Positions 2,337-6,737 of a DNA stretch of 35,560 nt are shown one piece after another. The notes under the pieces are model-generated. The model did not search any database. It was not told where the DNA came from and saw only the letters and a program-made list of their open reading frames with translations. Numbering within the stretch: position 1 is the stretch's first letter; every line of letters starts with the position of its first letter. Origin of the DNA: Chloroflexota bacterium (GTDB taxonomy: Bacteria > Chloroflexota > Dehalococcoidia > Lucifugimonadales > UBA2985). The DNA is taken from contig JAQBZZ010000016.1 in assembly GCA_027622595.1 (NCBI GenBank), positions 1 through 35,560 on the forward strand. The letters are read 5' to 3'. Made by a program: the position numbers and the translations under genes.

Positions 2337-3689
2337 GTCACCCTTAGAAAGACTGTCCTGAAGCTCGACTCTCAGCTCTACTGAACGGGCATGGGCATCG
2401 AAGCCCTCGGCGCGGGCCAACGTGGCCGCTGTCTTTGTGAAATTGCGGGCGGTATCCGAGTCGAGGGCCACTATGGGTGTCCTCTTGAGAAACTGGGTTA
2501 CTCCCAGGTATGAGCTGAAGCGCGCTGTGCCCCCTGTCGGCATGACGTGGCTGGGGCCGGCAATATAATCGCCCATGCTCTCCGGAGAGTGGTCTCCCAG
2601 GAAAATGCCGCCTGCATGGCGCACCTTGCCAACGGAGTCCCAGGCATCCTTGACCATGAGGCAGAGATGCTCCGGAGCGTAGTCGTTGGACAGTTCAATG
2701 GCCTCATCCAGGGTATCCACGACAACAATCACTCCACGACGCTCGATGGAGGATGAGGCAGTATCCTTGCGTGTCAGGCTATTCAACTGCCTCTGTATCT
2801 CTTCCTGGACTGGAGCTATCAGGTTTTCGGAGGTCGTTATGAGGACGGGTGTGGCCAGGAGGTCGTGCTCCGCCTGACCCAGCAGGTCGGCAGCACAGAG
2901 AATTGGGTTCGCGGTCTCGTCCGCAACAATCAGGGTTTCCGTCGGCCCTTCCATGCCGTCTATGCCGACCTGTCCGTAGACCATTTTCTTTGCCAGGGTC
3001 ACGAAGATGTTTCCAGGGCCGCAGATCATGTCCACCTTTGGTACGGTCTCGGTGCCATAGGCCATAGCTGCAATGGCCTGTGCACCACCAATCTGGAATA
3101 CTCTGCTAACCCCGGCGACCTGCGCCGCGGCCAGTACGGTTGCCAGTGCGTTGGAAGGAGTCCCCTGATCGCCACGGGGTGGCGTGACAAGGACTATCTC
3201 CTTTACGCCTGCCACTCTGGCCGGTATGGCGGTCATGAGCACGGTGGATGGATATGCGGCGCGCCCGCCCGGGATGTATATCCCCACCCGCTCTATTGGT
3301 GTGATGATTTCGCCGAAGCCGTTTTCCATATCCATCCAGGGACGGGGGAGTGTGGCCGAGTGGAACTGACGTATACGGCTGGATGCACGGCGAAGGGCTT
3401 CCGTAACCTCGGGGGACACTTCAGACGCGGCCCTGGTCATGTCTTCGCGGCCAAGCTCAAAGGCAGCGATGTCTACACCGTCTATGAGCCTGGTGTACTC
3501 CCTAACGGCCTCGTCGCCACGCTTGGAGACCTGTGAGATTATCTGAGCGACGGCCTCTTCGGGCGTGAGGGGCTGGCCGAAGATGCGGTTTATGCCCTCC
3601 ATTATCTCCGGCGAAGCGTTCTGCTCCTCAAGAAAGGAGTCCCTGTTGAGGGCCTTCCGGCCTTCCTCTACGCCACGGACGATCTTCAT
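2319..3689 (-). CDS. hisD: Histidinol dehydrogenase
   Basis: Zinc enzyme that carries out the last two NAD-linked oxidations, histidinol to histidine. The 456-residue product shows the family's signatures: GVYIPGG-like VGIYIPGGRAAYPS, the GPGN loop (ICGPGNIFVTLAKK), EGPTETLIVAD, the QAEHD metal site, NDYAPEHL with the catalytic Glu-His, and DYIAGPSHVMPTGG. Its ATG overlaps the stop of the preceding gene by 4 bases (ATGA), implying translational coupling. The tail after DAHARSVELR is longer than usual, and its last residues and stop are encoded by a dispersed repeat. Identity is secure; the tail is probably dispensable. Confidence 0.96.
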   Translation of the reverse strand: MKIVRGVEEGRKALNRDSFLEEQNASPEIMEGINRIFGQPLTPEEAVAQIISQVSKRGDEAVREYTRLIDGVDIAAFELGREDMTRAASEVSPEVTEALRRASSRIRQFHSATLPRPWMDMENGFGEIITPIERVGIYIPGGRAAYPSTVLMTAIPARVAGVKEIVLVTPPRGDQGTPSNALATVLAAAQVAGVSRVFQIGGAQAIAAMAYGTETVPKVDMICGPGNIFVTLAKKMVYGQVGIDGMEGPTETLIVADETANPILCAADLLGQAEHDLLATPVLITTSENLIAPVQEEIQRQLNSLTRKDTASSSIERRGVIVVVDTLDEAIELSNDYAPEHLCLMVKDAWDSVGKVRHAGGIFLGDHSPESMGDYIAGPSHVMPTGGTARFSSYLGVTQFLKRTPIVALDSDTARNFTKTAATLARAEGFDAHARSVELRVELQDSLSKGDSQSSG

Positions 3690-4450
3690 TTCAAGTACTC
3701 CCGTGCAAATTCCAGCAAGTCCTCTATGCTCCTCTCCCTAAAGGCCTCAAACCGCTCGATTGGAATAGCCTGGTAGATGCGGTCCAAACCACGCGGAACC
3801 GACTCCAGGAAATCCTCGACCATCTCTTTTATCTGCTCCTTTGACAGGTCGTTACTTCTGGAGACGACCCTGCGGGCCATGAACCGCAACCTGTCCCAGT
3901 TGAAGTTCCAGTCCAGTGTGCTTTCAATCCATTCACGCCACTCGCACATGGTGCTGGATGGAATAAAGCCTACTTCCACATCTTCCTCTGCGTTCGCCAT
4001 AAGAGGGCGAAGGGTCTCCAGCCCGCCAAGGGCCAGTTGCTCCCTGCGGTCAAGCTCCAACTGAAGGGCACGGTCCATCAGGTCTCCCATGGCGGGGTCT
4101 TGAAAGACGTCCCGGTTGCCGAAGTATGGCCGGTACAGTTCCAGTATCCAAAGCTCGTCGGCGAAGAGGTGGGAGGCGTAGCCCACGACGAACGCCCGGG
4201 TGGCCTCCGTGAGGTCGGATGCCTGCGCCAGGTGGGGATGGAGTTGGAACAGGCCAGCCAGGCCCTCCCCTTCCCTCTGGAAGTCCAGTTCGACGAAGTG
4301 GGTGTCGTCCCGCTTCCCCTTGGTTATGATGCGGATGTCCGGGGATACCGATCCAAGGAGAAAGGCTCCCAGATACCGGTCTACTGTGGGGTGCCTGAGC
4401 CGCGAGGCAGCGTCCTTTGCCATTCCGAAATGGGCGCTCAGATTAGGCAT
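3686..4450 (-). CDS. Zinc-dependent phospholipase C-like protein inside the his operon
   Basis: 254 residues. It resembles the zinc-dependent phospholipase C/S1-P1 nuclease-fold proteins (Zn_dep_PLPC type). The N-terminus MPNLSAHFGMAKDAA carries H7, followed by LGAFLLGSVSPDI, DTHF with H51, and GYASHLFADELW with H94 and D98. These spaced His/Asp residues are the expected metal ligands. There is no signal peptide, so a cytoplasmic location is inferred. The substrate is unknown; the family includes many predicted hydrolases of undefined role. It sits 20 bases after hisG and overlaps hisD by 4 bases, so it is made with the histidine enzymes. No step of histidine synthesis is known to need it. 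A phosphatase role for histidinol phosphate would be only a guess. Confidence 0.8.
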   Translation of the reverse strand: MPNLSAHFGMAKDAASRLRHPTVDRYLGAFLLGSVSPDIRIITKGKRDDTHFVELDFQREGEGLAGLFQLHPHLAQASDLTEATRAFVVGYASHLFADELWILELYRPYFGNRDVFQDPAMGDLMDRALQLELDRREQLALGGLETLRPLMANAEEDVEVGFIPSSTMCEWREWIESTLDWNFNWDRLRFMARRVVSRSNDLSKEQIKEMVEDFLESVPRGLDRIYQAIPIERFEAFRERSIEDLLEFAREYLK

Positions 4451-4470: not shown

Positions 4471-5466
4471 CTACTTGCCAAGCGCCCTGACCAGGTCCTG
4501 GTATGAACTGCACTGGTCTTGAAAGACGTAGTGGGCTTGAAACACGGTGACGCTGCCTCCGCCAACCTGACGGAGGTGGTCAACGGCCACCAGGAGCTTA
4601 TCACGGGGTACGACCACGGTCACGGCATACCAGGCATCGGCATCGTCGCTGTACACCCTGGATATGGTTGGGCCCTTGAGGCCGGATAGGTCTGGCCACT
4701 GGGTCACGTGGGCGGCCACTTCCTCCGGGGAGTTTCCCCGTATGTTGGCGGTTATGCTGAAGAAGTCCCTGGCCCGAAGGTAAGCCTCCACGTGCTCCAG
4801 AAGGCTCTTGGTCTCTTGAGAAGCGGACTGTTCTTTAGCCAACAGTCGTTTGTTTCCGATGATGCAGGCCTGAGACGCCAGAATGGTCCCGTCCTTCAGG
4901 GTCTTCAGCCGATTTTCCCTCATCGTGATGCCGCTTGAGGTTATGTCGGCGATGACATCGGCGAAGCCCATGGCGGGAGCGGCCTCCAGTGTCCCGCTGG
5001 ACTGCACCAGCGAGAAGTAATTGACTCCGTGACGCAGGAGGTGGCGTTGCACCATTCGAGGATACTTGGTGGCTATCCTCAGGTCCTTGCCCCGTTCTCT
5101 CAGGTCAAGGGAGAGGTCGGCCAGGTCACTCATGGAATCTACGTCCAGCCAGGAGTCCGGGACGCCCATGACCAACTCACAGTTCCCGAATCCAAGGTCA
5201 TCCATTATGAGAATTGAGTCACTTCCCTCAGCGCTCAACTCCAGGAAGCGGTCAAGCCCCGTTATGCCGAGGTCGGCGCTGCCCTCTTCCACTTTCAGGG
5301 GTATGTCCCCCGCCCTCTGAAACAGGACCGTGGTATTAGGTATGGCGCGAATCGCGGCGGTATAGCGGCGTGGGCTGGAGCGCTCCACCGGCAGACCACT
5401 GTTCCTCAGGAAAGCCAGGGACGACTCGTAGAGTTCACCGTCGCTGGGGATTGCTAGACGTAAGAT
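4471..5466 (-). CDS. hisG: ATP phosphoribosyltransferase, long form, apparent AUC start
   Basis: Catalyses the first committed step of histidine synthesis (ATP + PRPP to phosphoribosyl-ATP). The frame encodes LRLAIPSDGELYE at the N-terminus, ADLGITGLDRF, and the PRPP loop region SSGTLEAAPAMGFADVIADI. It then has a C-terminal regulatory domain (GPTISRVYSDD... to the end), as in long-form HisG; 331 residues in all. The conserved first 26 residues lie upstream of the first canonical start (GTG at 5388). Between the upstream in-frame stop and that GTG there is no ATG, GTG or TTG. ATC at 5464-5466 sits where Met is expected, with GGAGG 6 bases upstream, so AUC initiation is proposed. A base error in place of ATG is the main alternative. 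It is 38 bases after hisZ. Confidence 0.9.
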   Translation of the reverse strand: MLRLAIPSDGELYESSLAFLRNSGLPVERSSPRRYTAAIRAIPNTTVLFQRAGDIPLKVEEGSADLGITGLDRFLELSAEGSDSILIMDDLGFGNCELVMGVPDSWLDVDSMSDLADLSLDLRERGKDLRIATKYPRMVQRHLLRHGVNYFSLVQSSGTLEAAPAMGFADVIADITSSGITMRENRLKTLKDGTILASQACIIGNKRLLAKEQSASQETKSLLEHVEAYLRARDFFSITANIRGNSPEEVAAHVTQWPDLSGLKGPTISRVYSDDADAWYAVTVVVPRDKLLVAVDHLRQVGGGSVTVFQAHYVFQDQCSSYQDLVRALGK

Positions 5467-5504
5467 GTCTGTCCTCCAAGTCTTTTGTGAATTCTTTTGG
5501 CGAA

Positions 5505-6737
5505 TTATTTCGAAGTTTTTTGCAAATTATTTCGTGCATTTTCGGGTGCTTTTTCAGGCAGGAGTCCCAGAAGGGATTCCAGGGTATAGGCGAAACCAAG
5601 CGCAGGCACGTCCTCTTCTCCTCCAAGGGCCTTGACCAGCCCATCGTAGCGGCCACCGCCGCACAGGGTGATGGGGCCATTGGAGCCGGGAGCCAGTATC
5701 TCGAAGACCATGCCTGTATAGTAGGCTATTCCACGCACGAGGCCTATGTCCACCATGAGGGCCGTGGACGGATAGCGCTTGTGGAAGCTGGACAGCACGT
5801 CCTCCAAGGGCGTGAGGACCTTCGGGTTAATATTGTACGCTTGAAGCACGGAGCGTATCTGAGGCAGGGCCTGTTCTTCCTCGCCTTTTACCGAGGAGAG
5901 GCGCGAGAAAAGGGAGATACCCTGCTCTATCTTCTTGGGGTCATCGCCACGCTTCAGCTTCTGGACGAAGCGGGTGAGGATATCCTCCATGGAGCGGCTA
6001 CCCTGAATATTACTAAGGGAGTCGTGAAAGAGGTCATGGAGAAGGTCAAGAGCCTCTCCCTCCTCCATATGATCCACCAGCGAGCTAGAGGCGCGGGCGT
6101 CTTCGGCGGATTTCATGAGTCCAAGGGAGTAAGCCTGTTCCTGTATCCTCTGTCCCTCCTCCAAGCTCTTCTTGAGGCGCGGCAGGCTGGCTATCAGGAA
6201 GGCTTGTGCCCTATGAGAGAGGCCGATCTCCTCCAGCATGAGGTGCAAGACGCCAACATGACCGACTACACACGTTGAGGCCGGCGAACCCATGAGGGAG
6301 AGGCCATGCTGCGCCAGGGCAAGGACCTCGCCGTCGGACTCAGGCGAGGCAGCGCCTATGATCTCGGCCCCCGTCTGGTGCAACTGCTTGAACCCGCTGG
6401 CCTCGTCGTAACGGAAGATGGGGCCGCTGTACTGTATCCGCAGTGGGAGTGACTCCCCGCCAGCCTTTTCCAGGTAGTAGCGTATCACGGATGATGTGAA
6501 CTCCGGACGGAGGCTGACCCTGTTGCCTCCGGGATCGGTGAAGGTGTACATGCGGGTTGCAAGCTCTCCCCCGGACTTGCGTAGGAATAGCTCGGTCGGC
6601 TCAAGCAGCGGCGTATCTATGGCCTGGTAGCCATGAGAGGAAAGATGCTCCTGGAGAGTTCCCTGTAGGGATGTCCTACGTTCGAGGTCTTTGGGAGGCT
6701 CGTCTCTCATCCCAGGCAGTGGCCGGATTGCTGGCAT
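5505..6737 (-). CDS. hisZ: HisZ, HisRS-like regulatory subunit of ATP phosphoribosyltransferase
   Basis: 410 residues with the class II aminoacyl-tRNA synthetase catalytic fold: GMRDEPP at the N-terminus, motif 2 FRYD (108-111) followed by LHQTGAEIIG, LVRGIAYYTGMVFEI, and motif 3 GGGRYDGLV...ALGFAYTLESLL. The chain stops there, lacking the anticodon-binding domain of true HisRS. This and its place directly before hisG support HisZ. It is the first gene of the operon, about 30 bases from the predicted transcription start. No good Shine-Dalgarno is visible before the ATG. Its coding end contains two imperfect 22-23-base direct repeats (GAAATAATT...). A HisRS role is less likely. HisZ normally partners the short HisG, so pairing with a long form is odd. 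Confidence 0.85.
   Translation of the reverse strand: MPAIRPLPGMRDEPPKDLERRTSLQGTLQEHLSSHGYQAIDTPLLEPTELFLRKSGGELATRMYTFTDPGGNRVSLRPEFTSSVIRYYLEKAGGESLPLRIQYSGPIFRYDEASGFKQLHQTGAEIIGAASPESDGEVLALAQHGLSLMGSPASTCVVGHVGVLHLMLEEIGLSHRAQAFLIASLPRLKKSLEEGQRIQEQAYSLGLMKSAEDARASSSLVDHMEEGEALDLLHDLFHDSLSNIQGSRSMEDILTRFVQKLKRGDDPKKIEQGISLFSRLSSVKGEEEQALPQIRSVLQAYNINPKVLTPLEDVLSSFHKRYPSTALMVDIGLVRGIAYYTGMVFEILAPGSNGPITLCGGGRYDGLVKALGGEEDVPALGFAYTLESLLGLLPEKAPENARNNLQKTSK

Follow-up and report, generated by a model that had tools for sequence, protein, structure and literature searches.

The window analysed here, that is, the whole stretch of 35,560 nucleotides, is contig 38 of a metagenome-assembled genome (G000; 1.67 Mb in 86 contigs), whose named relatives by sequence are Dehalococcoidia and Chloroflexota of the SAR202 type. 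Its minus strand carries, in this order, a hisZ-like gene, hisG, a reading frame with a weak Zn_dep_PLPC match, hisD, hisC and hisB, and the features that surround the beginning of hisG are collected in Table 1. The HisG encoded here is of the long form, with the TIGR00070 catalytic domain (171.9 bits; cut-off 75.75) and HisG_C, each above its cut-off. The product of the hisZ-like gene reaches 231.7 bits against TIGR00443, below the cut-off of 271.65, although this is the best of the candidate families, the score against the hisS model being lower (209.9 bits; cut-off 286.75). Short-form enzymes need HisZ, and long-form HisG has its own regulatory domain (PMC10795190). In the window, the long-form HisG, which carries a HisG_C domain itself, adjoins a HisZ-like gene (4471-6737), HisZ being described as a short-form partner, and the partner relation of the two products is therefore uncertain. 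The reading frame between hisG and hisD (3686-4450, minus strand) matches Zn-dependent phospholipase C weakly, with 27.2 bits against a cut-off of 26.8.

Table 1. Features at and around the beginning of hisG in the window.
Feature	Position	Strand	Basis
ATC, inferred start codon of hisG	5464..5466	minus	Sequence and alignment with G002 (L032), G004 (L033) and G029 (L035)
Shine-Dalgarno GGAGG, 6 bases upstream of the ATC	5473..5477	minus	Motif and spacing equal in G002 and G004
hisG, 331 aa, long form with HisG_C	4471..5466	minus	ORF translation, profile matches
GTG, first canonical in-frame codon of hisG, residue 27	5386..5388	minus	Loss of conserved N-terminus if used
TAA closing the hisG frame upstream	5527..5529	minus	Reading-frame check
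hisZ-like gene directly upstream of hisG, ending 38 bases before the ATC	5505..6737	minus	Profile search
TGA in the third frame, end of hisZ in G002 and G004, relic in the window	5435..5437	minus	Comparison
22-base tandem duplication (CGAAATAATTTGCAAAAAACTT / CGAAATAATTCGCCAAAAGAAT) across the hisZ end	5491..5534	minus	Sequence comparison

Read along the minus strand from position 5480, CTT GGAGG and ACAGAC lead to the ATC of hisG, and the start region as a whole is ...AAAAGACTT GGAGG ACAGAC ATC TTA CGT CTA GCA ATC CCC AGC..., the native leader in the window being GGAGGACAGACATC. From this ATC, the frame (I-LRLAIPSDGELYESS...) stays free of stops over its 331 residues until 4471. Upstream, 20 in-frame codons separate it from the closing TAA (TTT GCA AAA AAC TTC GAA ATA ATT CGC CAA AAG AAT TCA CAA AAG ACT TGG AGG ACA GAC), and there is no ATG, GTG or TTG in the hisG frame anywhere from that TAA (5529-5527) to the GTG at 5388. 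A preliminary description of this DNA, which had reported a GGAGG six bases before an ATC and no canonical start between the TAA and 5388, proved accurate in every checked detail. Furthermore, position 1 of TIGR00070 falls on residue 2 of HisG, and a Met is therefore expected exactly where the ATC stands. The genome holds one copy of hisG, which leaves no other copy that could start in the ordinary way, and each of the other hisG-bearing genomes compared has a single hisG as well. As for the upstream motif, the 3' end of the 16S rRNA of a relative (G002) is GGATCACCTCCTTTCT, which carries CCTCC, complementary to GGAGG, and GGAGG is therefore a proper Shine-Dalgarno sequence (SD). The distance is also an ordinary one, spacings of 5 or 6 forming the peak of the distribution in these genomes (30/56 SD-led conserved genes).

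The comparison within the family comprised five genomes, four of which have hisG and stand for four genera (G000, G002, G003 and G004). In G002, whose HisG is 79% identical, the gene begins with CTGGAGGGGAGAC-ATC, that is, GGAGG, six bases and ATC, and in G004 (73% identical) with CTGGAGGAGTCGC-ATT, that is, GGAGG, six bases and ATT. A near-cognate codon thus lies at a proper distance from a strong SD in three genera (GGAGG-N6-ATC/ATC/ATT in G000/G002/G004). The fourth genus, G003 (62% identical), has AGGAGTAAGATAAA-TTG, with the start one codon later, and the AUH start is hence kept in three of the four hisG-bearing genera of the family and absent in G003. The nearest outgroup in the tree, G029 (60% identical), has AGGAGCAAAAG-ATG, an AGGAG-N6-ATG arrangement at the codon aligned with the ATC of the window, several other relatives have an ATG, GTG or TTG start at the same column, and others start a few codons earlier. 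An ATC (L024) and an ATT (L008) at that same column were set aside as internal codons, having an ATG two codons upstream.

Could the ATC simply be a base error or a strain artefact of the assembly, the true codon being ATG? The window does come from a metagenome-assembled genome in many contigs, but the same codon is ATC in G002, which belongs to a different genus and another assembly, and ATT in G004, so that the error would need repeating in three assemblies; it is not credible for this reason and may be regarded as extremely improbable. With the hisG starts of the related genomes aligned in this way, a misread ATG is unlikely, and the AUC start proposed for hisG in the preliminary description finds good support in the ATC and ATT behind GGAGG-N6 in related genera, as well as in the ATG of G029. 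The consequences proposed there, inefficient translation and a dependence on IF3 levels, would be in line with published cases (PMC5472188, PMC13009471). Judging from these alignments, the non-canonical start of hisG is a real conserved feature and not a base error.

Further traits of the region also bear on the start. Upstream of the SD, the sequences of G000, G002 and G004 have diverged, while the motif and its spacing persist. The three AUH genera agree on Ile at codon 1; where this codon is internal, as in relatives, it varies without restraint. Third-position conservation at the hisG start is raised in the G000-G002 pair (10/12 codons, a level attained in 7/320 windows) and is not raised in the comparison with G004. 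Canonical codons do exist further upstream in the hisG frame in two genomes, a TTG at -11 in G002 and another at -19 in G004; both lie inside hisZ, and neither is preceded by an SD match. The three AUH genomes cluster in the tree within the family, with a support of 86/83 that is below the usual star, and given their common ancestry they do not represent three independent origins. This distribution, drawn from three carriers that are all metagenome-assembled genomes, fits a single replacement of ATG or TTG by AUH, with later one-base variation between ATC and ATT.

An alternative is that initiation takes place at codon 2, a Leu codon (TTA in G000 and G002, CTG in G004, TTG in G003). G003 has its TTG exactly there, with AGGAG nine bases upstream, and CTG, as found in G004, is a known weak start codon. 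However, the TTA of the other two genomes is two bases away from AUG, too far for a near-cognate codon, and the SD distance of nine that codon 2 of hisG needs occurs in 3/56 SD-led genes, against 11 with a distance of six. Moreover, codon 1 stays Ile in three genera, although it is free to vary where it is internal. Initiation at codon 2 is, on balance, quite improbable.

The junction between hisZ and hisG varies much more than the start itself. In G002 and G004, hisZ extends past the beginning of hisG to a TGA located 29-31 bases beyond it, which gives an overlap of 32 bases, whereas in the window the hisZ-like gene stops at a TAA (5507-5505) and not at the corresponding TGA. The 22-base duplication across the hisZ end, whose length is not a multiple of three, appears to have shifted the hisZ frame, and may in this way have removed the overlap with hisG. 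SD-N6-AUH has thus stayed the same under a changing geometry of the two genes, and this speaks for the SD together with the start codon as the conserved element, rather than for a coupling to one particular stop codon. These same data bear on a HisZ-HisG fusion produced by ribosomal frameshifting or transcript slippage at the hisZ end. Such a fusion could be read from the overlap in G002 and G004 and from a run of A6 near the hisZ end in the window, but the frame of hisZ relative to hisG differs between G000 and the other two genomes, so that the shift would have to differ too, and there is no slippery site common to the genomes. Since, in addition, the conserved element is an SD with a fixed spacing to ATY, and in G003 a stop two codons before the TTG makes a fusion impossible, this explanation is very improbable.

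How special this start is within the genomes was approached in two ways. A sample of stretches from G000, G002 and G004 yielded 280 non-overlapping conserved ORFs (a set that still contains some shadow frames, as well as the infC loci fetched on purpose), in 63 of which the alignment begins at least 4 residues before the first canonical codon. Judged by eye, hisG and infC stood out among these 63 as the convincing non-canonical starts, and the remaining cases could be put down to low identity upstream, to shadow frames, or to what seemed to be internal fragments or frameshifts. Starting at AUH is therefore not something that these genomes do widely. In 393 genomes of the class, a strict SD-ATH-hisG pattern matched in G000 and G004 only (G002 was outside that draw). 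The matching canonical-start pattern was found in 4 genomes, which makes it too strict as a denominator, so that all the ATH search tells is that such an arrangement is uncommon.

The other gene of that survey, infC, is informative about the family. In G001, G002, G003 and G004 (L081, L082, L083 and L084, respectively), infC starts with ATA behind a G-rich SD, and therefore the machinery for non-canonical starts exists in the family. A separate observation is that the infC (IF3) gene of G000 (L080:671-673, minus strand, contig 86) has GTA at the codon that is ATA in the four relatives. This GTA is preceded by GGGAG, and its frame, followed back to the stop, lacks ATG, GTG and TTG. It is possibly a GUA start or else a single-genome base error; a GTA start was not found reported in the literature searched. 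One may speculate that hisG and infC form a small set of IF3-responsive start codons tuning histidine synthesis to the initiation machinery, within which the infC of G000 has passed from ATA to GTA, but this must be considered unlikely.

Taken together, the reading that we prefer, with a probability of roughly 0.78, is that hisG has a conserved AUC/AUU start which operates by means of a strong SD, was fixed ancestrally, most likely lowers HisG synthesis and is probably sensitive to IF3. The AUC (5466-5464) would be read as Met by fMet-tRNA with reduced efficiency, the strong GGAGG at a normal distance enabling initiation there, and the product would begin with (f)MLR or LRLAIPSDGELYESSLAFLR. 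The near-cognate codon would have been fixed in the ancestor of the three genera and kept as AUC or AUU; its weakness would bring the synthesis of HisG down in comparison with HisZ and the other products of the operon, besides making it IF3-sensitive, as for infC and sigR. Actual initiation at the AUC, the lowered yield and the sensitivity to IF3 are what we infer here, and by analogy with such systems the start most likely keeps HisG at a lower level than HisZ, or than the other operon products, in an IF3-sensitive manner. The gene for IF3 is present in the G000 genome. An altered initiator tRNA was rejected as the cause for G001, G002 and G004, which have a tRNA-Met with a normal GGGCTCATAACCC anticodon arm; in the G000 assembly, a tRNA-Met with this arm was not found. 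RNA folding, applied to the start regions of three genomes, gave no conserved structure beyond that of shuffled sequences (z of -0.55, 0.63 and 0.10), and a small AGAC/GUCU hairpin with the AUC in its loop was dropped, as it is present in G000, shortened in G002 and not clear in G004.

A different view of the same start is that it is real but neutral: the strong SD and the ribosomes delivered by hisZ would make the codon tolerable, and it would have drifted to fixation with no regulatory role. The TTG that G003 has kept or reverted to, the variable geometry of hisZ and the lack of any conserved RNA element found speak for drift. Nevertheless, one third-base change to G would restore ATG, and it has remained unfixed across a protein divergence of 21-27%; furthermore, AUU and AUA starts with a strong SD yield about 10% of AUG in S. 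aureus (PMC13009471), and so low a yield of a pathway enzyme is hardly likely to be neutral. Drift is thus a possible, if clearly less favoured, explanation than a start that limits HisG synthesis.

A non-canonical start for hisG was not found described in the literature searched and, to our knowledge, has not been described; likewise, we know of very few documented bacterial genes with AUC or AUU starts. Part of the relevance of the case is practical, as gene callers cannot place such starts and would here cut off 26 residues of a conserved enzyme. That an AUH start has survived in three genera, and in an enzyme of biosynthesis, suggests a use of weak starts for setting enzyme dosage in genes other than infC, and scanning for conserved N-termini upstream of the first canonical codon could be a way to more such genes.

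The systems with which the hisG start can be compared share some of its properties and differ in others. One of them is infC (from E. coli, Streptomyces and S. aureus, with AUU, AUC or AUA), which like hisG combines a near-cognate AUH codon and a strong SD conserved across genera; infC, however, is subject to feedback that involves its own product, a loop not known for hisG, which is metabolic. In Streptomyces, IF3 represses the GTC start of sigR, and this start determines the ratio of the product to its partner RsrA (PMC5472188). As in hisG, the non-canonical codon is conserved and the operon includes a partner gene, the stoichiometry depending on the start, as is proposed for hisG; but the codon is GTC, the gene encodes a regulator, and the IF3 effect is proven for sigR (PMC5472188) and drawn by analogy for hisG. 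The order is also the opposite, the weak gene being first in sigR-rsrA and second in hisZ-hisG. Lastly, in S. aureus cvfC1 (AUU), ccpN and citZ (both AUA), a strong SD compensates for the non-canonical start, as would be the case in hisG; the starts of cvfC1 and ccpN are conserved, citZ encodes a metabolic enzyme, as HisG is, and the yield from the ccpN start varied with the growth medium (PMC13009471). Those starts, from another phylum and other genes, were mapped by retapamulin profiling and reporters (PMC13009471), whereas that of hisG is proposed from sequence.
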